This document shows, piece by piece, positions 4,060-34,889 of a stretch of 40,812 nt of DNA. The position numbers and the translations under genes are program-made. Origin of the DNA: a virus; the IMG/VR virus record IMGVR_UViG_3300031524_000030, positions 1-40,812 of that record. The stretch is one strand, 5' to 3'. Each line of letters opens with the position of its first letter. Position 1 is the first letter of the stretch. The notes beneath the pieces are model-generated. The model was not told the origin of the DNA. It did not search any database and saw only the letters and a list, made by a program, of their open reading frames with translations.

Positions 4060-6438
4060 TTACTGAGGTTTCGCTGCGGCTTCGAAGGCCAGATCGGCCA
4101 AGTACCGTGCCTTTTGGGGCTCGGTCATATAACGGAGTTTGAGCAGGAATCTATCTCGGGACGCTTGGTCCTCAGCCTGGTTCCGCGTAGAGTCGGTGGC
4201 GTTCGACCCGACCTGCGCGTCATCCGTTATCCGCACGTTATTGTCCATCGGCTTCAGAGACGCTCCGGTCGTGGAAGCCGAATCGACGTTCTTGGTCCAC
4301 TTAATGCTGGACAGAATGTCCTGCACCGTGTCTTTCAAGCTTGTAATGTGCCGCTTGGCGAGTTCGTTAACCTTCTCGTCCAGCTGCTCCGGCTTCAGAT
4401 CCTTGTAAGCATCCTGACCGGTGAGCACTCCATGCATGACGATCTGCTGTGCCAAGGTCCTCTTGGAAGCCGTCAGAATAGCCTGACGTGAGTCCTTAAG
4501 TGCTTCAACCTCTTTGGCTAGAGCGTCCTTCTCGGTCATAACTCCGTTAAGCGCCTCGTCCTTGTCAGAAGCCTCAGTCTTGGTCATGACCACGTAATCC
4601 TTGTGCTCGGAAATCGACTTGCGGCAGTACTCAACCCAATGGTCTTTGCCCCAGCGCTCTCCCAATGCGTTATGCAGATCGTGCATCTTCCAACGTAGAC
4701 TGTCGGAGGCTCCCTTGTGGTGCTTGTCGAGGTCGCTATAGAGACCCAGGACTTCCTTCGCCCTGGTGGCTTCGTTCACTGCCCCAGCCGCTGAAGTATC
4801 CACATCAAGGAGCAGAACCGCTGCCGGCAAAGCACTGATCTCGGCATCGACCTCCACAGTAACCTCTGCAGGAACGATCGGTACCACCGTCACGTCCTGC
4901 TCATCCTTCTTCTTGGCTGAACCGCAGCCCATCTTGCTGGCTTTGCCGGATACACACGACAGGATCTTGGACTTAGTGGCGTCGGATACCTTGGCCCGAC
5001 CAATCAACCTACGGGCAGCGGTCACGTGCGCGCAGTCAGGTACCGGGAACGACCGGCCCGGCCCGCAGAACGTGCCACCAGACAGCTTCTTGCGCGACTC
5101 GGTAGACAACTTAGCATCCTGCGCCGGCAACTCCCCGGCAGCCACGGCCGCATCGATCTCCATCTCCAACTCTTCATTGATACCGTCAATGTCAGCGAAG
5201 AAGGCCTTGTCTTCCTCGGTGGATTCCTGATCCCAGTTGGTCCAATCGCAAGCTTCGCCACAGTCATTAGGCGGAGCAGTTACGGTAGTGGTATCCGTCA
5301 TCAACTCAGTTAGTTCCGCTGCGATCTTGTCATCCTGAACCACGGTGGCTGCATCCCAACCGTTCTTGCGGATGCGGGCATTGATTGTAGACACCAAGGA
5401 GCGGCGCTCCGTCTTCAACTCATCCGTGTCCGGGGACCATGCCACCAGCTCGGCCTTTAGAACCTTGGCCTTATCAGCCGTAAGGTCTGGTGCTTTGATC
5501 TCGTCGCGCAACTTAACTGGGTCTATGGTCGTTTCAACGCCTGGTGTGTTCATCGGCTCCTCTGTCGCTACGATGTCAGAGTCGTACAGCCCGTCCGTCA
5601 TACGCATGCTGCCGGCTGCGCCTGCTGCCAAGAGGCTACCCTGCTGTTGTGTAGTAAGGCCCAGGAAGAACATCTTCTCTAGACTGTCGGTCAGCACTTC
5701 CTTGCTGATCGTGGTCGCGAAAGGATCGGCGGCGAAGTTGATGAAGCTGACTTCCTGGTTATCGAAGCACCCGGAGATCAGGAACATCTGGTCGCCATCC
5801 ACCTTCTGGCCCAGCTTGTGCTCGCACTTGCCGTCCTCGGCCCAATCGGTGTGGCAGATCGAGCAGAGTGCGGAATCCGTCTTGAACCCTACTGATACGG
5901 TGAGATACTCATCGGCCAGGATCTTGCGTATGCCGTCCGGATTGGTGATCCGAACGCCCAGGTCGGTATAGCCCAGACCGGTGTACTCATCCAGCGGCAT
6001 CAGGTTCTTCACTACCCAGTCGACAGACTTGAATAGGTCGTGACGCTTCTTACCGTCCCTCTGATAGAACAAGAAGTCCTTGACCATGGGGAAGTCGTTG
6101 ACATAACGCCAGCTATCGTCCACATACTTGGCGTCCAACACACGTCCCAGGACGTCCCCGCGCTCATCATGCTTGATCAGGACTGGGCGCGGCGTCTGAA
6201 GCACCACCCCATCCTTGGTCGACTTTGGCAGCCAGGTGTGAATACCTTCCTGCATCTTGTCGGGGCGATAGAAGCGCATATTGCCATTCACGATACCGGC
6301 ATGCGTCGCCGCCATACGAACGAGCAGACTATGGCCGGTGTCCGACTGAGAGTCGCGGCATTCGAAGAGATTGCGCTTGTTCTCTAGGACTTCCTTGGTC
6401 TTGAAGGTCCAGAAGTCCTTCATCTCTAACCAGGCCAT
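4060..6438 (-). CDS. prohead protease with Cys/His region and scaffold-like C-terminus
   Basis: This encodes 792 residues; GAGG precedes the start. Residues 1-245 look like an S78/U35-type prohead protease: PVLIKHDERGDVLGRV gives the His-Asp motif (H90), LTVSVGF the Ser motif (S182), and EVSFINFAADPFA the closing strand. A CxxC...CxH cluster (C192, C195, C205, H207) sits inserted after the Ser motif. Residues about 455-505 hold FCGPGRSFPVPDCAHVTAARRLIGR, a Cys/His module I know from other phage head proteins. Residues 545-792 are charged, helical and coiled-coil-like, as expected for an internal scaffold. At 792 residues it is much longer than a plain protease of about 200-250, so it looks like a natural protease-scaffold fusion that releases itself during head maturation (inference). 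Confidence 0.75.
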   Translation of the reverse strand: MAWLEMKDFWTFKTKEVLENKRNLFECRDSQSDTGHSLLVRMAATHAGIVNGNMRFYRPDKMQEGIHTWLPKSTKDGVVLQTPRPVLIKHDERGDVLGRVLDAKYVDDSWRYVNDFPMVKDFLFYQRDGKKRHDLFKSVDWVVKNLMPLDEYTGLGYTDLGVRITNPDGIRKILADEYLTVSVGFKTDSALCSICHTDWAEDGKCEHKLGQKVDGDQMFLISGCFDNQEVSFINFAADPFATTISKEVLTDSLEKMFFLGLTTQQQGSLLAAGAAGSMRMTDGLYDSDIVATEEPMNTPGVETTIDPVKLRDEIKAPDLTADKAKVLKAELVAWSPDTDELKTERRSLVSTINARIRKNGWDAATVVQDDKIAAELTELMTDTTTVTAPPNDCGEACDWTNWDQESTEEDKAFFADIDGINEELEMEIDAAVAAGELPAQDAKLSTESRKKLSGGTFCGPGRSFPVPDCAHVTAARRLIGRAKVSDATKSKILSCVSGKASKMGCGSAKKKDEQDVTVVPIVPAEVTVEVDAEISALPAAVLLLDVDTSAAGAVNEATRAKEVLGLYSDLDKHHKGASDSLRWKMHDLHNALGERWGKDHWVEYCRKSISEHKDYVVMTKTEASDKDEALNGVMTEKDALAKEVEALKDSRQAILTASKRTLAQQIVMHGVLTGQDAYKDLKPEQLDEKVNELAKRHITSLKDTVQDILSSIKWTKNVDSASTTGASLKPMDNNVRITDDAQVGSNATDSTRNQAEDQASRDRFLLKLRYMTEPQKARYLADLAFEAAAKPQ

Positions 6439-6446
6439 GCTTACCT

Positions 6447-6608
6447 CTACTTCGTTATTGGGTTGATGATCGTTCCGTTGGGCAGGTTAATGGGGATCTG
6501 CCCCTCGAACCGAGGTGGAATAGGAGACTTGCGAACCGGCTGCGGAACGAACTGATAATCAGGCGTCAGCGGTTGCTTCCGGATCGTCGGTATCTGAGAT
6601 TCTGCCAT
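6447..6608 (-). CDS. small Pro-rich protein nested at the portal gene end
   Basis: This encodes 53 residues, starting inside the last 50 bases of the portal gene in another frame. The start has GAGG six to seven bases upstream. The protein is rich in Pro and Ile (IPTIRKQPLTPDY, PIPPRFEGQIPINLPNG) and has no predicted membrane segment. The frame fills the gap between the portal and the protease genes exactly, and ends just before the protease SD, which supports real coding. Function is unknown. Confidence 0.6.
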   Translation of the reverse strand: MAESQIPTIRKQPLTPDYQFVPQPVRKSPIPPRFEGQIPINLPNGTIINPITK

Positions 6609-8721
6609 TCTCATCCTCATTGTCACTCAGCGCCGATGTAATCAGTACTGAGAGAAGTTCGGGGTCATAAGTGGTACCTGCCACAGTGGCCAGGTAATCC
6701 AACCCCTTTCGTGCCTGTCTAGTATAGTCATTCTCTTCAGCGTTAGGGATTCCTCCTTCTTCACGAGCCAGGATACCTTCCAGGGTAGACCGGATCTTAT
6801 CCTGGTATGCTTCGTGATCGATCGTCCCGTTCTCGTCCTTCAGCTCCCCCATCAACTGTACGAGGGAGTCTGTCCACTCTGCAGCGAGGTGCTCCAGACC
6901 ACTCTTGGCCTTGGTCGGACCCAGGTTAGACCCATGCTGGTTGGTAGGAGTCTCCTTGTTCTGCACACTCTTCTGGGCCGGGTTGGACTTCTTGGCTGTA
7001 GCCCTCTGTGGTGCTCCTCCTGTACCGGTGGCCTTGAAGTGTTCGGTCTTTGCCTGCAACAAGGAGATGGTTGCAGCGGTCTTGCGCTCGTGGTGTTCGG
7101 TCAGTGTGCCTGACTTCTTCATCTCGATGTTGGCCTGTGCCTTAGCAGCTTCGGTCTGAACAGGGATAAGCTTCAGCTGCTGCTGAGTGGCATGCTCGGC
7201 GATCTCAATGGCGGAGTCTGCCTTGGCTTCAGCGGTCTCCTTTACCAGCCGGACTACATGGAGATCGAAGTTCAGCTTCTTCTTCTGGGCGGACTTGAAC
7301 GCCTGCTTACCGACCAGCTTGCGAGCCTCGTCCTCATCAACCAAGTTGTTCAGGAACAACTGGATAATGTGATTCTCGAACTTGATCTTGTTGTCCAGAT
7401 CGATCTCATGGAAGTGCAACCAGGTACGAGCAACAGCCCTCTGAACGGAGACCGAGTAGGTAGCCTCGCTGAAGAACTCCTTGAAGATGGACATGCGGAT
7501 CAGTCCACCGAACATCTCCAGATCAGCCTTGACGGCATCCTTCAGGTTCTGGGAGATGTTGTCGGCCGTTGAACGAGAGCCGGCACCCTTGCTGTCTCCC
7601 ATATCGACCGCGCTCATACCCAGGCCTACGTAGATGCGGCTCTTGTAGTGCTCGATCAGCTTGGAGTAGTCGAGAGCCTTACCCTCGGAGCCTACTGCCT
7701 TTACGATGACCCGCTCGTCGGTGACGAACATACCCTCCTTGGGCATGTTCTGGATCTGCCACTGGACCATCTGCACTTCGTCCATGCCACTCTCAGTGTC
7801 AAAGCCGGCCGGGTTCTCCTTGCTTCCCACAGCCACGTGGAACAGCGGGAAGAGGAAGTTGACGAACAGCAGCTCGACGTTCTCCTCTAGCCTGCGCAGG
7901 GCAAACAGGTCGTCTCTGACTCCAACAGTCCTGGGAGTACCGAACCGATGTCCTGGCTTGACGTCCCACTTGAGATGAACGATGTCCTCGAGGGATATGT
8001 CCTCGAACGGAGCTCCGGTGTCGAAGAAGCGACGCCATTTGGCTGGTATACCGTTCTCCAGGTAGGGGAAGATCATGTGTGAGGGGATCAGACGATAGCC
8101 GGCTACCGGTACAGGCCGGCCTGGCTTCTTGGACACAATGGTCGCGTTCTCATGACGGATCTTCTGCAGGAAGCAGTTGGAGCATAGCAGCAGATTGATC
8201 AGGATCTGCTTGTAGAAGCTCTCCGTGGTACGCTCCATGACGTATTCCATAGCGTCCAGTCGGCGCTGGAGGTATTCGATATCTGGATCCTGATCACCTA
8301 TGATCTCGAAGCCGTTACGGAACATCAGGGAGATCTTACGATTGATGGCCTGACGGACGAATGGCTCGGAGTCGAAGATGGTGAATGGCTCGAGCAGGTT
8401 GTACTCCGGCTGGATGATTCCCCATAGGCGACGATAGGTCTGGTTGGCGTCGTCGACTCTCTGAGCCATGGTGATACCTAGAGGCTCCAGCTTCTTGATG
8501 CCGTCTCCTTGGAACAGCTCTCTATCACTGATGAAGCGCTCGCTCATTGAAGCCGGACCTTCATTCAGATCCGCATGTGTGGCTAGCCCATCAAGGCATG
8601 GCTTCATCAGAGCTGTGTCCTTGCGCACCGGACGACCGGCAACGAGCTTATCTGCAGACCACTCGCGTACACGCTTATTGATCACCAGCTGCTGATCTAT
8701 CACCTTCGTAGCACTAGCCAT
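6559..8721 (-). CDS. portal protein
   Basis: This encodes 720 residues with GGGAG upstream. The N-terminal half carries the features of phage portals: RQAINRKISLMFRNGFEI (clip and wing entry helices), YKQILINLLLCSNCFLQK, the strand RLIPSHMIFP, and the DIVHLKWD turn. ENVELLFVNFLFP and SRIYVGLGMSAVDMGD follow, the latter shared by many portals just before the channel helices. Residues about 490-620 are a long charged helix, probably the crown. The acidic C-terminus from about residue 630 is extra. The protein forms the dodecameric DNA entry ring at one capsid vertex and binds the terminase. It lies in the usual order between the terminase and the protease. Confidence 0.85.
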   Translation of the reverse strand: MASATKVIDQQLVINKRVREWSADKLVAGRPVRKDTALMKPCLDGLATHADLNEGPASMSERFISDRELFQGDGIKKLEPLGITMAQRVDDANQTYRRLWGIIQPEYNLLEPFTIFDSEPFVRQAINRKISLMFRNGFEIIGDQDPDIEYLQRRLDAMEYVMERTTESFYKQILINLLLCSNCFLQKIRHENATIVSKKPGRPVPVAGYRLIPSHMIFPYLENGIPAKWRRFFDTGAPFEDISLEDIVHLKWDVKPGHRFGTPRTVGVRDDLFALRRLEENVELLFVNFLFPLFHVAVGSKENPAGFDTESGMDEVQMVQWQIQNMPKEGMFVTDERVIVKAVGSEGKALDYSKLIEHYKSRIYVGLGMSAVDMGDSKGAGSRSTADNISQNLKDAVKADLEMFGGLIRMSIFKEFFSEATYSVSVQRAVARTWLHFHEIDLDNKIKFENHIIQLFLNNLVDEDEARKLVGKQAFKSAQKKKLNFDLHVVRLVKETAEAKADSAIEIAEHATQQQLKLIPVQTEAAKAQANIEMKKSGTLTEHHERKTAATISLLQAKTEHFKATGTGGAPQRATAKKSNPAQKSVQNKETPTNQHGSNLGPTKAKSGLEHLAAEWTDSLVQLMGELKDENGTIDHEAYQDKIRSTLEGILAREEGGIPNAEENDYTRQARKGLDYLATVAGTTYDPELLSVLITSALSDNEDENGRISDTDDPEATADA
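6714..6726 (-). repeat. 13-bp repeat TATACTAGACAGG, copy 1
   Basis: Read on the minus strand, this 13-mer is identical to copies at 15502-15514 and 16294-16306. This copy lies inside the 3' part of the portal gene (codons for Y-T-R-Q), so it could be chance, but it lies upstream of the small gene that ends that operon section. Confidence 0.5.
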
Positions 8722-8722
8722 T

Positions 8723-10300
8723 CTAGCTCCCCACCGGACTGAGTCCGGTCAATGAACTCTGGATACCTGACTTGGCAAACACCGCAGCCGCACTTGGAGT
8801 TACAGGAGGCACGGCCAGGGGAGTTACAGACACTACCCCGTTCTGAACCACATAAGACGCGCCAGAACCAGTCGTGGATGAAGCCAGCACACTCCCAACG
8901 GTCGCGAGCTGTGTAGAGGGGTTCTGAGTTGATACAACCTTACTGCTCTGCTGCTGCTTGATGAACGCTGTCACCATAGACGCCAGAGAAGCCATGCTGG
9001 AAATGGCCGCCAGTATCTGTACCGACTTGCCCATATCTGCGTTCACTCTGGCAGTCAGTCGCTGGAATGAATCCTGCTGCAGCGCCTGAGTTCCACTAGT
9101 CTTGCTTGAGCAGAAGCTCATTATACTGCTCATCTCACTGATGCCAGGGCTCATTCCCAGACTTGCCATCGACGGAGGCATAGGATTGCCGATGGGCAAC
9201 CCGCTGCACGCCGAGTTGATCATCGGCATGCCAGCCAATGGACCCGTGGTCTGCACAGGAGACGGCAGCTTCATGGAACGAACTACGCCAACCAGAGAGC
9301 CGGCAGTCTTCATTACTCCGGACAACAGCTGCGTCGCGGACGTTACCGCGTTGCTGGCGGACGAGTTTGGTTTGACCGCCATCTGCACGATCCTGTCCAA
9401 CTGCATCATCAGTCCAGAGGCCTGGGCCACAGCTTGCGGAAGGATGAAGGAAGACATTCCAGTTGACAGACCCTGCGACGAGCTGGTCAGAGACCCGCTG
9501 GTCATGCTGAGCAGAGAGCTCATGCGAATCAAGTCAGCGATACCAGAAGTCGCCAAAGCCGCTACTACATTGATCGCGTCCGAAGCAATAGGATCTGGCT
9601 GAGTCAGGGATTGATACATAGAAGAGCTAACCAGTCCTGCCGCATCGATCTGAGACTGAACCAGCGCCGCTGTATCGCTGCCGATATCAATAGTGCTGGC
9701 TTGGATGACGTTCAAGCCTGGTGTTGAGGGAGTAGGGGTAGCCGCCGGATATGCCATAAGCTGGCTCTGTATCCCAGCGTTCATGATGGCGCTGGACTTC
9801 AGAGATCTCAGCAGCAATGCCGACTGGGCTGCTACTCCTCCGTCTGCCGCTAGCTGTGATTCGACTGACTTGTTGACTGTCATCAGAGCCTGATGCTGAA
9901 GGGTATTGGCTTCAACCCCAGCATTAGGGCCGGCTATTTGATTGACCTGCAGGACCCCTAACTCAGCATCCAGCATGTTCGCATACATCGTCAGTGATAC
10001 CGCCGCAGGCACCTGCCCGTTGTATATCGTGCTGAGGGCCATTGCAAGCTCTGGATTACTGGACTGATCTACTGTAATCCCCAGTCCTGAATACAGGCTT
10101 TGGATAACAGACTGAAGATACCCTGAGGTTGCCACCAGATCTCCCAACTGGGCAGCCAATGAGGCAGCCAAGGAGGTATTGGACGGGACTGTGGCTCCCG
10201 GTGCTGCAACTGGCGGTTCGGCCACCGCAACTCCACCCAGTTCCTGATCAGGAACAGTGGGCGGCGGAGTATAGGCAAAGGTAATCGGCTCGAACGACAT
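8723..10300 (-). CDS. Ser/Ala/Met-rich virion-type protein of unknown function
   Basis: This encodes 525 residues. The start overlaps the stop of the upstream gene as TAATG. The composition is strongly biased to Ser, Ala, Gln, Met and Leu with few charges. Residues 1-45 are Pro-rich and disordered, and the rest is predicted helical, with a second Gly/Pro/Met-rich break near residues 350-385. No catalytic motif is visible. It stands between the terminase and portal genes, an unusual insertion point. Such helical, low-charge proteins are often internal head or ejected proteins, but that is inference only. Confidence 0.7.
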   Translation of the reverse strand: MSFEPITFAYTPPPTVPDQELGGVAVAEPPVAAPGATVPSNTSLAASLAAQLGDLVATSGYLQSVIQSLYSGLGITVDQSSNPELAMALSTIYNGQVPAAVSLTMYANMLDAELGVLQVNQIAGPNAGVEANTLQHQALMTVNKSVESQLAADGGVAAQSALLLRSLKSSAIMNAGIQSQLMAYPAATPTPSTPGLNVIQASTIDIGSDTAALVQSQIDAAGLVSSSMYQSLTQPDPIASDAINVVAALATSGIADLIRMSSLLSMTSGSLTSSSQGLSTGMSSFILPQAVAQASGLMMQLDRIVQMAVKPNSSASNAVTSATQLLSGVMKTAGSLVGVVRSMKLPSPVQTTGPLAGMPMINSACSGLPIGNPMPPSMASLGMSPGISEMSSIMSFCSSKTSGTQALQQDSFQRLTARVNADMGKSVQILAAISSMASLASMVTAFIKQQQSSKVVSTQNPSTQLATVGSVLASSTTGSGASYVVQNGVVSVTPLAVPPVTPSAAAVFAKSGIQSSLTGLSPVGS

Positions 10301-22611: not shown

Positions 22612-23009
22612 ATACAACGCAATTGCAGTATGTCAAGCAGGCATTGAAGTTGGCATTGGATTATGTCCGACTGCCCAAGTCTGAGCCTGCTGGCAGTAAC
22701 CAGCTGAATCTGCATACGAACCATGAGAAGCATCTTGAACGGCAGATACAGAATGCCCAGTCGTTGGTAGGCAATGAGCTTGCTCCTGTCTACCACGACC
22801 AGAACGTATTGCCCTTTGTTCTAGGGGCAACCTACCTGTTCATCGTCAATCACGAGCCCAAGTTCGTGTTGGATGATTGGGCAGCCGCTGATACCACGTA
22901 CAACTACATGCGCAGGCATAAGGCTGATCTGTTCATTGCAGATCTGCGCGTTAAGCCCGTCATCCATAATCCATTGGACGACGACGATGTTGAAGCAGCA
23001 ATCCTGTAA
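22608..23009 (+). CDS. hypothetical early protein
   Basis: This encodes 133 residues from a GTG that overlaps the upstream stop, with AAGGAG before it. It is mostly helical with a hydrophobic centre (NVLPFVLGATYLFIVNHEPKFVL) and an acidic C-terminus (NPLDDDDVEAAIL). It is probably translated in concert with the upstream gene. Function unknown. Confidence 0.65.
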   Translation: MNTTQLQYVKQALKLALDYVRLPKSEPAGSNQLNLHTNHEKHLERQIQNAQSLVGNELAPVYHDQNVLPFVLGATYLFIVNHEPKFVLDDWAAADTTYNYMRRHKADLFIADLRVKPVIHNPLDDDDVEAAIL

Positions 23010-23034
23010 CACCAACTACCACAAGGAGAATGCA

Positions 23035-23649
23035 ATGACGAACGTAATCATGTTCGCTGAGGGAGTGTGTGTATCTAGCACATTCAGTGCCAACGCTGGT
23101 GAATACCAGGTTTCGTTGGTGTGCGGTAGCCACGTCAAGACGTTCTCAGCCAAGCAGGTTAATACCAGCAGGCTGCAGATGGAGTTGACTGCTGTGATCA
23201 CCGGATTCAGCAAGCTGAAGGAAGCTTGCAACGTCACCGCTTGCGTAGAGAGCTGGTACGTCAAGAACGCAGTGAATGACAAGGACGGCTGGCTGAAGGG
23301 CTGTATTGCCAGGGGCTGGAAGACAGCCCGTGGCGAAGACCTTCAGCACAAGGAACTCTGGGTGGCATTGGTTGATGCAATGAAAGGGCATACGGTTACG
23401 TGGGTCTGGACATTGTATGAACTGAGGGGAATACCCACTATTCCCACACTCAGGAAGCCGATCGGTGGAGTAATGAAGCCTGTGAAGACGCAGGCTGCAC
23501 TCACACTCGATCAGGCATTGGGCATGCTCAATGCAATGACTGAGGATGATAAGAAGCAGGTCCTCAAGATCATGCGCAAGAAGCCCGTTAAGGCTGTGGC
23601 ATCTGATGTAGTACGCGGTGGCGCGGCTGCAGAAGAGCACACAGCGTAG
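23035..23649 (+). CDS. RNase H-like domain protein with altered active site
   Basis: This encodes 204 residues; the start follows CACAAGGAGAATGCA. Residues 1-128 follow the RNase HI plan: strand one MFAEGVCVSS, helix RLQMELTAVITGFSKL (E50, the family's conserved Glu), strand four NVTACVESWYVKNAV (normally TDS-x-YV), then GWKTARG, LQHKELWVALVDAM and HTVTWVW. The usual Asp at strand one is Glu9, and the TDS Asp is Glu72. The final GH...D segment is missing. So the fold is likely, but normal two-metal cleavage is doubtful. The last 70 residues are a separate basic tail (KKQVLKIMRKKPVKAV). It lies 100 bases before the polymerase-like gene. Confidence 0.55.
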   Translation: MTNVIMFAEGVCVSSTFSANAGEYQVSLVCGSHVKTFSAKQVNTSRLQMELTAVITGFSKLKEACNVTACVESWYVKNAVNDKDGWLKGCIARGWKTARGEDLQHKELWVALVDAMKGHTVTWVWTLYELRGIPTIPTLRKPIGGVMKPVKTQAALTLDQALGMLNAMTEDDKKQVLKIMRKKPVKAVASDVVRGGAAAEEHTA

Positions 23650-23679: not shown

Positions 23680-23748
23680 ACTGTGCTTATGGGCACAACA
23701 CTGAGTTACTCAGTGTACACGCAGTATCAACCGCAATGGAGGAAGTAT

Positions 23749-26700
23749 ATGCATACTAAGAAGAACTTCGCTATCGACTACGTTGATAGCAAACTGGGAC
23801 TTCTACGACTTGGTTTCGATACCGAGAACGGTTCCACAGCCGAAGCAATCAAGCTGTATCCGTTCGACAAGTATCCCAACCACGACTACAGGTCATTCAA
23901 CAAGGAGTATACGTTTCACACCACGTGGGACACATCGAACTTGTTCGAGCTGTTCCTTGATGAGGGAGTCACCTATGGTGAGTTCCGCTTCAAGGGAAGG
24001 AACAGGGATCATGTAGCCTCGGCGTCACGTGTCCTGGCTAATGTCTCCGGTGCTCATGTACTGGAGAATGGGTCTCGTGGCTTCCAGCATCCGAGCATGC
24101 CTGTTGTCGAACCTCACTATGTACTCTATGGTGATTGGTACGATGACGGCACTGGAAGTGCCATCCTGGTACCGGCACGGTTCATCGCGCCGGACGGCAA
24201 GCGCATCAAGACGCTGTCCGAGATGATCGGACTGACGTGGCATATCCGCACCAAGGCCGACAGGCTGAAGGCAAGGAAGTACATGAAGCGTCTCAAGGCC
24301 CATCATCTGTGGGCAGTGAGAGGTGAACCGATCGGTGAACAACAGGTATCCGTGCAGGAGCCGACTGAAGTAAGGGTCAAGCTGCTGCATGGAGAGGCAT
24401 TCCAATTAGGCCGCAAGGTCGTTGGAGCGGCTATCGATGTGCTGTTCGGTAAGGTGAAAGCCACCGCATTGCATGTCGACCTGGATCAGTTCGGTGATGA
24501 CGAAGTGTCCATGGTGGACGGTAGCTGCTACATCGATGTCAACTTCCTGCATCAGCTGGGAGAGGACTTGATGGAGCGTGCTGTTACCAAGCAGGAGAAG
24601 GACGAGGCAGAGTTACTCATGGCTTATGAAGTCGGTGACGCCTTCATGGGTACATGGATTGCCAAGTCCAACTTCGGCAAGGGCATCTGGCACGTACGTG
24701 ACATGGACGGGCCTTATCAGATCATCGTGTACGGTCCCAAGATGCAGGGAGAGTCCGAGCACGTGTTCCTTGGGTGCCTGAGCGCAGTGAAGGCAGGTGT
24801 CGCATTCACTGAGATTCAAAGCATGCTCAGCTTCATGAGCAATGCCACGAGCAAGCTCTGGACCAGCCTGGCCAATCAGTATCTGCTTGGCCTCAAGGCT
24901 GCCGTACATGACGAGGATATGCTGCGTCATTACTTCCTCGTTCACATCGCACCACTGGCTGGGATGCTGGAAGATCAGGATCCCGACGGTGAGGTATGGA
25001 GTCTGATTGAGGCGCTCCGTAATGGAGTACCGATACTCAGATTCCCGGGCCTGTTCAGGAGGGTGGTCAATCACCTGATGAACGTCGCGATGCAGTGCGA
25101 CAGAGGCAGGATACCGTATGAGGACAAGGCATATCGTGCGTACTTCCAGCCCGATGACAATGCCATTGACTTCCGTACGGGGAATGTCGATGTCAGGAAG
25201 AGTGTGATCCCTGAGGGATGCGTCTGTGCAATGGACGCGCCTGCGGGTCAGACCATCGTCATCTACAGGCAGCCGCTGGCTCATAACCAGGAGGCAATCA
25301 TTGCCTACAACATCGGTGAAGATGATAGGAGGAGATTCAAGCGGTTTGCCGGCCGTGGTCGGATCATCATGGGAAGAAGCGTACGTGAGCAGCTGAAGAG
25401 AGCTGGCGGCGCGGATCATGATGACTCCGCTGTCGTACTGACAGATCCAAAGCTGGTGGAGGCATTTGCCACAGTGCCGCCATATCCTGAGGCTACAGTA
25501 CCAATGGATACTGGCAAGTCGAAGGATGATGACGACGAGGACAATCCGTTCATCTCGGGTGGAGAACTGGAGATCGACGACCAAATGGTCAAGATCCCGG
25601 GACTCGAGCGTGGTCTCACCGAGCCACGTATCTGGGGCATGCCCGACTTGTACAAGGCATGCTTGGATGCAACCAAGCTCCAAGTGACCATTGGTCCACT
25701 GGACAATGCCATCAGGTTGGACGTCCATCTGAGTGGCGACAACAAGAGGCATATGCTCATCAACCTGGCAGAGCAGTGGAAGGAAGCTGATGCTGCCGGC
25801 AATTGGGACAGATGCGAACTGATGGCTGAGTGCTTCGAATGGCTCAGCAAGAGGAAGGATCATCAGCTGCGGGATCTCGCACGCAAGCTGGAGGACTCCA
25901 TCGATCGCATCAAGATGGGCAAAGGTGGTCCAGCAGATACTGATCTGTTGGACAAAGCCAATGATGTCATCAACCTCAGCAAGGTGTATCCACGTTGCTG
26001 GAACTGGATGGGCAGGCGGAAGGATGCAAATGACGTCCCGGTGGGACGCATACCTGCATTCCGGAAGCTGGCTGGTGACTATGTCAGCGAGCCCAGTTTG
26101 GTGGATGAGACACTCGAATCCATCAAGAACGTACGGGATGCCATGAACGACTCCTTCTTGGAGGAGCAATGGCGCATGGTAAAGCCTATCCCGTACAAGC
26201 TGGACGTGATGTTCCCTCATGAACAGACCGTTGGTCGGTTCGTCGGAGAGCTCAGAAGGTTGTGGTTCGAATCCTGGCAGCCGTTCTTCAGCGGTCAGGT
26301 GGATCATACCCGTATAGAGCGCAACAGAGTGGGACAGATCGTCCAGAACGGTGGAGAGCTTCCACTCATCGGAGGGGGCACAATCATGCTCCCTGGGGTG
26401 AGGGCCATGTTCCTGCAAGGAACAAGGACCATGGCAGCTCAAGCCAGGGCCGGTGGATTGGAGATCACCGAGGACATGCTGCAATGCTACGTGGCTGTGG
26501 AAGTCGCGAGGCGGAGCTATTCAGGTACGTTTGACGCTGCCGAGAAGAACCTCGATGGCGACAAGATGCAGTACCGGGATGGTCTGCTGTGGACCGACTT
26601 TATGGCTAAGGCGTTCGTCGGGGCCCTAAAGGCGGCCGAACTGACTGGGATCTATCTCCCAGTGAAGTTCGACAAGTATGTCAACAACCTGCGCATCCGG

Positions 26701-27012
26701 AGCCAGAGGGAGCTGCTGAAGAGCAGCTCTGACAGGATCCAGAGCGTCGAGCCTGAGGTAATGGAAGGAGAGGAAGTCTTTGACCAGGAGATGAGGACCG
26801 GTAAGGTCCAAGTCCTGCTGGTAGGGAGCATCGTCAAGCGTGCGCGTGACCTGGCCCTGATTGGCTACACTCTCAGCGATGAAGTCGTCCCAGATGGGGA
26901 ATACACCATGGTGGACGGCCTTATCGTGGTCAGGGAAGCCAGTGCGCAGCTTACTGGCAAGCGCATTGACATGGAAGGACTGGGGAATCCAGTTGACTTA
27001 GAAGGCAAGTGA
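23749..27012 (+). CDS. putative two-barrel RNA polymerase-like protein (YonO/QDE-1 type)
   Basis: This encodes 1087 residues, the largest gene here; the start at 23749 follows GGAGG by six bases, while an upstream in-frame ATG has no SD. Four spaced motifs match the order of single-chain double-psi-barrel RNA polymerases. They are VDGSCYID (D257-G258), KSNFGKG (K306, K311), YRQPLAH (R507, P509, H512, compare R-x-P-x-x-H of beta-prime) and GGADHDDSAVVLTDPKLV (D556, D558, D559). In known enzymes the last reads D-x-D-G-D; here it is D-H-D-D-S, so the third metal ligand is shifted or lost. The C-terminal 500 residues are helical and match nothing I know. The motif match is my own reading, and a structural or unrelated protein remains possible. 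Confidence 0.45.
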   Translation: MHTKKNFAIDYVDSKLGLLRLGFDTENGSTAEAIKLYPFDKYPNHDYRSFNKEYTFHTTWDTSNLFELFLDEGVTYGEFRFKGRNRDHVASASRVLANVSGAHVLENGSRGFQHPSMPVVEPHYVLYGDWYDDGTGSAILVPARFIAPDGKRIKTLSEMIGLTWHIRTKADRLKARKYMKRLKAHHLWAVRGEPIGEQQVSVQEPTEVRVKLLHGEAFQLGRKVVGAAIDVLFGKVKATALHVDLDQFGDDEVSMVDGSCYIDVNFLHQLGEDLMERAVTKQEKDEAELLMAYEVGDAFMGTWIAKSNFGKGIWHVRDMDGPYQIIVYGPKMQGESEHVFLGCLSAVKAGVAFTEIQSMLSFMSNATSKLWTSLANQYLLGLKAAVHDEDMLRHYFLVHIAPLAGMLEDQDPDGEVWSLIEALRNGVPILRFPGLFRRVVNHLMNVAMQCDRGRIPYEDKAYRAYFQPDDNAIDFRTGNVDVRKSVIPEGCVCAMDAPAGQTIVIYRQPLAHNQEAIIAYNIGEDDRRRFKRFAGRGRIIMGRSVREQLKRAGGADHDDSAVVLTDPKLVEAFATVPPYPEATVPMDTGKSKDDDDEDNPFISGGELEIDDQMVKIPGLERGLTEPRIWGMPDLYKACLDATKLQVTIGPLDNAIRLDVHLSGDNKRHMLINLAEQWKEADAAGNWDRCELMAECFEWLSKRKDHQLRDLARKLEDSIDRIKMGKGGPADTDLLDKANDVINLSKVYPRCWNWMGRRKDANDVPVGRIPAFRKLAGDYVSEPSLVDETLESIKNVRDAMNDSFLEEQWRMVKPIPYKLDVMFPHEQTVGRFVGELRRLWFESWQPFFSGQVDHTRIERNRVGQIVQNGGELPLIGGGTIMLPGVRAMFLQGTRTMAAQARAGGLEITEDMLQCYVAVEVARRSYSGTFDAAEKNLDGDKMQYRDGLLWTDFMAKAFVGALKAAELTGIYLPVKFDKYVNNLRIRSQRELLKSSSDRIQSVEPEVMEGEEVFDQEMRTGKVQVLLVGSIVKRARDLALIGYTLSDEVVPDGEYTMVDGLIVVREASAQLTGKRIDMEGLGNPVDLEGK

Positions 27013-30959: not shown

Positions 30960-31706
30960 ATGAAGAAGAAGGTAATAGAGGATGACGGATTGGAAGAGGA
31001 ATCTAAGGCCAAGGCTCCCAACTTCTACAGGATCTCACTGGCCGTTACCGAGGATATGCTGGGCACTGCGCCGGCTAATCCCGAGATATACAGCAGGTTC
31101 GTCGCCGACAAGGCCCTCAAGGACGAGAAGAAGCTCGCCAAGACCGAGGAAGAGAAGGCAGCAGTCCAGGAGAAGCAGGACGATGTCACCCGTGAGGAAC
31201 TCGCCATGCTTCCCGAAGACAATGCCAAGGGAATCACGGTGTTCCGTCGTGATCCTACCTCAGGTGCACTGATCCTTACAGACACGATGATTCGTGGCTT
31301 CCTCAAGGAAGGCGCGGCAGCCATCGGTCTGAATGGAGCAACCTGGGGAATGACAACCAAGATTGACAGGTTCGTCTTCGTCACCAACAAGGACAAACGG
31401 CCCATCCGTGTTATCCCTATCATTCGTGATGGTGCAATCGTCACTGCTCCCGATGACATATATGAGCGTCCACTGCGTGCTATGACCATGCAAGGACCTC
31501 GTGTCACACTCGCGGCGAGTGAACGTGTTAGAGCTCCATTCAGTCTGGAGTTCTACATCTACATCGTAGGTCTGGGCAGTACTGACAAGGGGAAGATCAC
31601 CCCCAAAGTCCTGAAGGAATGGCTGGACTACGGTGTCTACTGTGGACTCGGTCAGTATCGGACAGGCGGCCACGGTCGCTTCGATGCTATCGTAGAGCCT
31701 GTATGA
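30960..31706 (+). CDS. conserved phage protein with C-terminal Gly-rich GRF motif
   Basis: This encodes 247 residues from ATG at 30960, with GGGAG further upstream than usual. After a charged helical region (KDEKKLAKTEEEKAAVQEKQ) comes a compact alpha/beta domain (GFLKEGAAAIGL; VIPIIRDGAIVTAPDD). The protein ends WLDYGVYCGLGQYRTGGHGRFDAIVE. This last pattern, G-x-G-x-x-R-x-x-x-G-R-F, recurs in phage proteins of unknown role and resembles the Gly-rich loop of RAMP-type RNA-binding proteins. I do not claim homology. Confidence 0.65.
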   Translation: MKKKVIEDDGLEEESKAKAPNFYRISLAVTEDMLGTAPANPEIYSRFVADKALKDEKKLAKTEEEKAAVQEKQDDVTREELAMLPEDNAKGITVFRRDPTSGALILTDTMIRGFLKEGAAAIGLNGATWGMTTKIDRFVFVTNKDKRPIRVIPIIRDGAIVTAPDDIYERPLRAMTMQGPRVTLAASERVRAPFSLEFYIYIVGLGSTDKGKITPKVLKEWLDYGVYCGLGQYRTGGHGRFDAIVEPV

Positions 31707-31855
31707 AACCCACTCGTGAGGACCGAATCAAGCTATCCATCGACCGGCGCATGCGCAAGTTGGCTCAGAATAGCTGTGCCAAGGTTACTACCAAAGAGAC
31801 CGCCAAGATACGGAAGCTTGAAGAGGTCCTAACCACAATAACCCGCTCAGAATAG
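31703..31855 (+). CDS. small basic protein
   Basis: This encodes 50 residues. The start overlaps the previous stop as ATGA. Lys/Arg-rich and helical (IKLSIDRRMRKLAQ; ETAKIRKLEEVLTTI). Coupled translation with the preceding gene suggests a shared task. Unknown function. Confidence 0.5.
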   Translation: MKPTREDRIKLSIDRRMRKLAQNSCAKVTTKETAKIRKLEEVLTTITRSE

Positions 31856-31877
31856 GCTGCGGCTAAAGCCTGAATCT

Positions 31878-31897
31878 TGGGGTGGTAGTACCACCCC
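31878..31897 (+). terminator. 7-bp GC-rich hairpin ending the three-gene operon
   Basis: GGGGTGG (31879-31885) pairs perfectly with CCACCCC (31891-31897), loop TAGTA. It lies 23 bases after the stop; no T run follows. Confidence 0.5.
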
Positions 31898-31974
31898 GAG
31901 TTCACCCGTACAAGTCACGCGCCGTACTGCGTACCCAGGCAGAGGCTGGGTAATGCACAGCAATGCAAAGCAAG

Positions 31975-32392
31975 GGCATGGTGGGGCGCGGTCGCGTGCT
32001 GTAACGCCGTGGCAACGGCAAAGTCGTGTCGTGAGCAGCGGCGTAATGGCATAGTCCGGCTTTGTGGGGCAATGGCAACGTCTGGTTCAGCTCCGCAGAG
32101 GCTCCGCTGTATGTCGCAACGTCAGGCTTCGGCGAAGTTATGTGTCTCAGCGTATTGCCAGGGCAATGCGTGGTACTGCGGTGGCATCGGCAAAGTGCTG
32201 TGAGGCGTAGTTCTGCATAGGCAAGGCAATGTACTGCACTACGACGGCAACGTTTGACAGGGTCGAGCAATGGCAGCGCCACGCCCGGCCCTGCCGGGGC
32301 AATGTAAGGTGTCGCACGGTATTGGCAGAGTATCGCCGAGCGCCGTATGGCTTGGGCATAGTTTAGCCCGGCGTTGCAAGGTAAGGGCACGT
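31975..32392 (+). repeat. array of GGCANNGT octamers with half-helical-turn spacing, non-coding
   Basis: Octamers of the form GGCANNGT or close variants begin at 32017, 32048, 32074, 32115, 32131, 32162, 32189, 32225, 32246, 32272, 32298, 32324, 32355 and 32386, with weaker ones at 31975 and 32011. Successive distances are 31, 26, 41, 16, 31, 27, 36, 21, 26, 26, 26, 31 and 31. All but one equal 5n+1, close to multiples of half a DNA turn. The bases between are not conserved apart from a frequent AAT or ATT just before an octamer. No plus-strand frame with an SD crosses it. It may be an origin, a partition-like site, or a loading site for a DNA-binding protein. Confidence 0.6.
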
Positions 32393-32410
32393 GTAATAGG
32401 AGGCAACACA

Positions 32411-32911
32411 ATGGCAGCAGATGGCGAAGCAAGGTTCTGGTTCGGATCCATTGGGGATGCGTACAACTGGACCATCAACCGCGCTGACACTGAGGTCAAG
32501 GGAGTTTGGCGCAGTTGGGCCAAGCGTCGCCTTGAATCTGAGCTGTCAGACATCGTTCGGGTAGCATCCGGGCACAAGAAGGACAAAGTAGCCATCGGCG
32601 ACTCGAGGTATCAGGAGCTGTGGCGAATCGCAGACGAGAAGGTAACTACCTTCTGTAATCAGCATAACGTGCCGAGATCAAGCATTGAAGCGCAGGTCCC
32701 GGCATTAACAGAGTTGAAGGCGCTAGCCCAGGTACCGGTAGTGGTACCGCATCAGACTGCCAAGAGAATAGGAGCCGGCGCTGTAGGTGGCTCTATGTTG
32801 ATCATTGTATTAGGCATTATGTGTGGTTTCGTCCACTCTCTATTCCTGTTCGGCATGTCTGTATCCGAAGGTATCGGCCATGGTCTACATTGGCTGATTC
32901 ACCTTCTCTAA
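32411..32911 (+). CDS. hypothetical protein with C-terminal membrane anchor
   Basis: This encodes 166 residues; AGGAGG lies nine bases before ATG. A soluble, basic, helical N-terminal part of about 125 residues (WRSWAKRRLESELSDIVRV) ends in one or two membrane helices (GAVGGSMLIIVLGIMCGFVHSLFLF). It probably faces the cytoplasm. It is the first gene after the octamer array and heads a long overlapped operon. Confidence 0.65.
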   Translation: MAADGEARFWFGSIGDAYNWTINRADTEVKGVWRSWAKRRLESELSDIVRVASGHKKDKVAIGDSRYQELWRIADEKVTTFCNQHNVPRSSIEAQVPALTELKALAQVPVVVPHQTAKRIGAGAVGGSMLIIVLGIMCGFVHSLFLFGMSVSEGIGHGLHWLIHLL

Positions 32912-34610: not shown

Positions 34611-34889
34611 ATGCCAATGACGTTAGTCGTAATGCGGCGACCCTCCGAGGACTCCCTGACCATCTGCTTTGAGCCCATGAAGAACATGAAGGCTCTGAAG
34701 AAGAGGGTCAGGGAACTCGACGCCGGGGAGGCTGCAGCCATCAAGGCAGCCAAGAAGGCAGAGAAGCATGTGCTCAGCGAAGCTGGACGCAAGCGTATTG
34801 CGGAAGGCCAACGTAAGCGCTGGGCTGCCAAGAAGACCACTGGCAACTTAGGCGCACAGCCAGTTGCAAGGAAGAAGGCCAAGAAGTGA
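34611..34889 (+). CDS. basic protein with NUMOD3-like C-terminal motif
   Basis: This encodes 92 residues from ATG at 34611 with GGAG eight bases upstream. Residues about 40-85 are Ala/Lys/Arg-rich, and LSEAGRKRIAEGQRKRWAAKK resembles the short DNA-contacting NUMOD3 motif found beside homing nucleases and on phage DNA-binding proteins. No nuclease domain is present. Probable DNA or RNA binding. Confidence 0.55.
   Translation: MPMTLVVMRRPSEDSLTICFEPMKNMKALKKRVRELDAGEAAAIKAAKKAEKHVLSEAGRKRIAEGQRKRWAAKKTTGNLGAQPVARKKAKK

Follow-up and report, generated by a model that had tools for sequence, protein, structure and literature searches.

The window analysed here, i.e. the entire 40,812-bp stretch of a virus record from IMG/VR with matches to portal and major head proteins, raises the question of what is written in, and which protein reads, a non-coding region in which the octamer GGCANNGT recurs at distances that tend to 5n+1. 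In a preliminary description of this DNA the octamers were attributed to a protein that reads alternate faces of the double helix, as at origins or partition sites.

A pentamer lattice interrupted by extra G residues

The octamers and their spacings are present exactly as first described, with starts at 32017, 32048, 32074, 32115, 32131, 32162, 32189, 32225, 32246, 32272, 32298, 32324, 32355 and 32386, and distances of 31, 26, 41, 16, 31, 27, 36, 21, 26, 26, 26, 31 and 31; ten exact copies of GGCANNGT are located on the plus strand inside 388 bp. They are, however, an incomplete description of the region, since segmentation of 31914-32395 shows the entire stretch, and not the octamers alone, to be organized as a lattice with a period of five bases. 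HMM segmentation divides the non-coding segment from about 31908 to 32395 of the plus strand, which extends a little beyond the span reported earlier, into approximately 93 pentamers of the form GYNNN and 18 extra Gs. The features of the locus are as follows:

30960..31706, plus strand: vipr-like gene encoding a predicted RAMP/Cas7-fold protein (start ATG 30960 or GTG 30933; G-loop GVYCGLGQYRTGGHGRF C-terminal)
31703..31855, plus strand: basic 50-aa ORF in the interval from vipr to the array; overlaps the stop codon of vipr
31876..31900, no strand assigned: hairpin GGGGTGGTA/TACCACCCC, directly ahead of the array, not a consensus terminator
31908..32395, plus strand: probable pentamer (GYNNN) guide array (HMM segmentation, shuffle score, adjacency to vipr in relatives)
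31975..32386, plus strand: GGCANNGT octamers, the sequence surrounding the inserted-G slips
31944, 31975, 32011, 32017, 32048, 32074, 32100, 32131 and 32162, plus strand: extra Gs 1-9 of 18
32183, 32189, 32220, 32246, 32272, 32298, 32324, 32355 and 32386, plus strand: extra Gs 10-18 of 18

The first base of the pentamers is G in 93% of cases and the second is C or T in 97%, while base 5 is free in the arrays of the clade, being G in only 27-28%. The slips of the lattice are single-base insertions, nearly always of G, which follow each other as a rule every 5-7 pentamers. The pattern of the slip site, NNN-G-GCANN-GY, is the previously noticed octamer, and its 5n+1 spacing is a side effect of the lattice, because n pentamers plus one inserted G separate successive copies. 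The constant phase combined with variable spacers was thus correctly singled out as the key feature, and it is accounted for by the lattice and its slips. The local lattice score is 119, whereas 1000 dinucleotide-preserving shuffles average 8.6 and never exceed 22. The region is neither a CRISPR array nor a simple tandem repeat, as had been stated, and a repeat search of positions 31850-32450 found no array of identical repeats.

A search for promoter and terminator consensus sequences at the array region found none, and a similarity search with this region against known phage DNA returned no match. Neither the array nor eight related loci match any Rfam family, therefore no known hammerhead is present there. 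The hairpin ahead of the array is a possible 5' boundary of the RNA; a structured 3' tail was not seen in the sequence at the array.

The predicted RAMP/Cas7-fold gene and its relatives

The vipr-like gene ends just upstream of the array, and its product is matched by no model in Pfam, NCBIfam or PHROGs. Its C-terminus GVYCGLGQYRTGGHGRF presumably corresponds to the G-loop of RAMP proteins, which it resembles. The profile of its family (A2) compared against the PDB identified type VII Cas7 (21bh_B, E 1.8e-5) and Csm4 (E 1.2e-3), and PADLOC reported a Cas7_IIId match in 21 of the 72 family members. Foldseek searches with the AlphaFold2 model of the window protein (pLDDT 84) retrieved Csm3 and type VII Cas7 with E-values of about 1e-6, and VIA-align superimposed the model on Csm3 with a Z of 13.5 and an rmsd of 3.8 over 172 residues. 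The vipr product is thus predicted to adopt the RAMP/Cas7 fold and, judging from the model, would be an RNA-binding protein and the likely partner of the array. The proteins encoded at 34611 and 37707, which had been named as candidate readers, very probably do not play this role.

VIPR is a phage RNA-guided DNA-recognition system described in a 2026 preprint, in which the phage RAMP protein Vipr and vrRNAs composed of tandem GGY/NN pentamers act on competing phages (PMC13142463). We placed the founder Vipr gene of phage SUSP1 at L083:28474-29061 on the basis of the locus architecture and the flanking YNNGG arrays. The hhalign comparison of family A2 with this protein gave an E-value of 3.1e-6 and a probability of 88, with an alignment that runs through the G-loop. 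Because the SUSP1 Vipr is a detectable relative of the family, we classify the window locus as VIPR-type.

Both of the first two relatives identified, with 33-36% protein identity, possess the lattice immediately downstream of the gene, in a different DNA sequence. Profile searches yielded 80 viral loci and 80 loci from bacterial or archaeal genomes, the latter mostly MAGs of Clostridia. A lattice on the same strand lies no further than 700 nt from the vipr relative in 138 of 167 loci; among these 167 loci, 107 hits are placed downstream of the gene and 38 upstream. Arrays beside the gene are always on its strand, which fits a co-oriented RNA, while elsewhere only eight same-strand lattice hits and not a single minus-strand-only hit were found in 2.5 Mb. 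The scan of relatives suggested in the preliminary description therefore shows that loci whose proteins are about 33-42% identical retain both lattice and slips in a differing sequence. The grammar of the arrays is nearly universal, with a mean step of 5.1-5.2 nt, an inserted base that is nearly always G and occurs mostly every 5-7 blocks, and the family consensus GCAAN-G-GCANN at the slips. No array was detected near the gene in 29 relatives, some of them at contig ends. Among members of the Vipr family, a distant relative in Hydrogenobaculum phage 1 (L167:3128-3898) has no detectable pentamer array nearby, and another on a contig filed under Lokiarchaeota (L128) also lacks a detectable array.

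Clustering of the neighbours at these loci recovered ordinary phage genes. We found no dedicated accessory (vap) gene: apart from ordinary early phage genes, the members of the clade share no conserved cluster of neighbours. The 50-aa ORF between vipr and the array has no match in Pfam and is absent from all co-conserved neighbour clusters. Elsewhere in the window, close to where the rightward gene block begins, a protein with an RNase H domain is encoded (22873-23649, plus strand), adjoined by a 1109-aa protein with no family match (23683-27012).

Reading of the triplets and candidate targets

Within units, i.e. series of blocks bounded by extra Gs, base 5 of a block and base 3 of the next one are dependent (chi2 60.9, 9 df, p 9e-10), in a pattern that resembles genomic dinucleotides (r 0.52), and across slips this dependence is gone (chi2 8.9, p 0.45). 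In the concatenated triplets AGGAGG is found in 30 units as compared to 15.0+-3.4 in triplet shuffles, GGAGG in 61 as compared to 36+-5, and TTGAC in 45 as compared to 24+-4; the triplets of some units spell a ribosome-binding site followed by ATG. GATC is depleted in the concatenated guide triplets of all arrays (57 vs 82+-8 expected), perhaps due to avoidance of that site by phage DNA.

Two target examples were found for arrays of relatives. A complete seven-block unit of phage L069 matches, at 21 of 21 positions, a site of the sister phage L074 that covers the ribosome-binding site and the start codon of alpA (AGGAGGAGATCATGGAAGAAA); the alpA product is assigned to PF05930 (Pfam). The gene is intact in L074 (1739-1930), the sole contig in the IMG/VR collection that carries this site, and truncated in L069 (9004-9072), where the site is missing. 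An 18-nt guide, ATGAAGGACTACATGGCA, is common to the arrays L039 (10774) and L104 (11336), the G-Y letters of which differ at several places; this sequence encodes part of the conserved BrxL motif IMKDYMASGSF in three contigs (brxL, PF13337 in Pfam). Base 5 agrees with the target at seven of seven blocks of the alpA guide and, in both arrays, at six of six blocks of the brxL guide. The triplet-motif and dependence statistics together with these two examples form the case that N3 N4 N5 of successive pentamers seem to spell one continuous piece of target DNA inside a unit and not across slips. A unit therefore probably represents one guide of 12-24 nt bounded by extra Gs.

The published rule for VIPR type II, established on SUSP1, is xNN, with pairing of bases 3-4 and a 1-nt skip (PMC13142463), and the same locus might follow it, with base 5 unread and the slips acting only as structural adjustments of the RNP filament. 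Besides this precedent, such a reading could draw on aligned array pairs, in which base 5 is slightly the most divergent (0.368 vs 0.309 and 0.330 for bases 3 and 4), but it leaves unexplained the agreement of base 5 throughout the alpA and brxL guides, the statistical link between base 5 and base 3 of the following block, which is lost across slips, and the enrichment of contiguous Shine-Dalgarno motifs, and we consider it unlikely.

For the window's own guides no convincing target was found, two 18-nt units being without an exact match in IMG/VR. A third unit matches mainly a single family of low-GC serine-rich genes, probably by chance. A search with all units in 5 Mb revealed little excess of targets apart from the alpA case, 36 selected guides compared with 50,697 phage records gave one marginal match, and guides from Porcincola intestinalis found no targets in its own genome. 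When different match rules were compared on a small local database, none stood out statistically but for the single alpA unit. Codon-phased guides were rejected as a general rule, because TGA triplets are not depleted; the absence of stops among the window's own 95 triplets is weak evidence, as only about 2.6 are expected from the base composition.

Comparison with known systems and proposed mechanism

Like VIPR type II of Escherichia phage SUSP1, the window locus combines a phage RAMP protein possessing a G-loop with adjoining non-coding tandem pentamers, in which G-Y is conserved and the other bases vary, and the candidate targets in its clade fit phage competition. The type II pentamer is GGY/NN with a fixed G at base 5, whereas this base is free here. 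A vrRNA of type II comprises 9-16 repeats followed by a structured 3' tail (PMC13142463), in contrast to the units described here, which mostly have 4-8 repeats and are joined in large numbers in one 480-nt array with an extra G between them; instead of the 1-nt skip, their triplets appear to be contiguous. The preprint also allows a "related consensus" and distinguishes seven types, between which the array architecture varies (PMC13142463); the window clade may be one of the types counted there. As it stands, the array looks like a new dialect of the system first reported in 2026. With Cas7 proteins of type III and type VII CRISPR systems (Csm3 and type VII Cas7) the vipr product shares the predicted fold and the G-loop, and a filament on the guide RNA would be expected by analogy, but the locus is without a CRISPR array and the block comprises 5 nt as opposed to 6 nt.

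The phages L057 and L061 contain two RAMP-type genes each, and the copy of the window's clade in L061 adjoins a GYNNN array. The other copies represent a second clade, characterized by the G-loop GIGEWRPEKDG and a GGYNN array directly after the gene in both phages:

L057: gene 8319-9062; array 9091-9469
L061: gene 5645-6376; array 6346-6690

The arrays of this second clade proceed in steps of about 5.0 nt and have minus-one slips approximately every 10-14 repeats, unlike the plus-one slips every 5-7 repeats in the window's clade. Two grammars beside two paralogues suggest that the grammar of the array is tied to the adjacent protein, and in both of them a one-base slip seems to recur at intervals near the expected guide length.

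These observations bear on the initial proposal that a filament-forming protein (of an origin, partition site or nucleoid) reads alternate faces of double-stranded DNA. Its appeal lies in the mean step of nearly all arrays, which is close to half a helical turn (10.4 bp per two steps). That a protein reads the array is indeed very probable, but that reader is very probably not of the helix-face type at an origin or partition site: the slips behave as information boundaries, gene-start motifs are enriched in the within-unit triplets, and another phage RAMP clade exhibits 5.0-nt steps with slips in the opposite direction. We dropped the half-turn reading, now very improbable, because the array accompanies a RAMP-fold gene and shares its strand, and because its slips behave as guide boundaries. 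That the region is a degenerate coding repeat, or low complexity produced by mutation, is hardly credible in spite of an open frame of 176 codons on the minus strand, as the open frames over the array are not retained in the relative L003, the five-base period with single-base slips breaks any frame, minus-strand-only arrays are lacking in the 2.5 Mb searched, and no conserved translated product has been found across relatives so far.

We hold it as highly likely that the window locus is a VIPR-type phage system, in which each block of the array probably provides three guide bases and which would operate in the following way. Transcription of the array would proceed on the plus strand, jointly with vipr or subsequent to it. 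Each RAMP-fold subunit would then occupy a single block of five bases, holding its fixed G-Y and leaving the others exposed to pair with the DNA of the target. Within a block, N3 N4 N5 would probably pair with three contiguous target bases, and the 4-8 blocks between two extra Gs would constitute one guide of about 12-24 nt. As the guides are sense-strand and enriched in motifs resembling ribosome-binding sites and -35 elements, the likely effect would be that the start regions of genes in rival phages are blocked, as are host defences. In VIPR type II, transcription, assembly of the RNP, the geometry of pairing and the biological effect have been demonstrated (PMC13142463).

With moderate confidence we extend this proposal to a VIPR clade that uses a contiguous triplet code, with three pairing bases per 5-nt block and an inserted G that separates many short guides per transcript. 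Such a clade would be widespread in phages of Clostridia and present also in other phyla, with guides aimed at the starts of regulators of rival phages (alpA) and at host defence (brxL of BREX). VIPR has been put forward by its discoverers as a precursor of CRISPR effector complexes (PMC13142463). If our reading is true, the fixed skip base became a third guide base and a one-base slip delimits the guides across a large clade, which would illustrate how a noncontiguous code turns contiguous, a step towards crRNA-like guides. For hundreds of phages that are still uncharacterised, the sequence would then suffice to predict targets, and guides against brxL would make the arrays tools of counter-defence in addition to weapons between phages.
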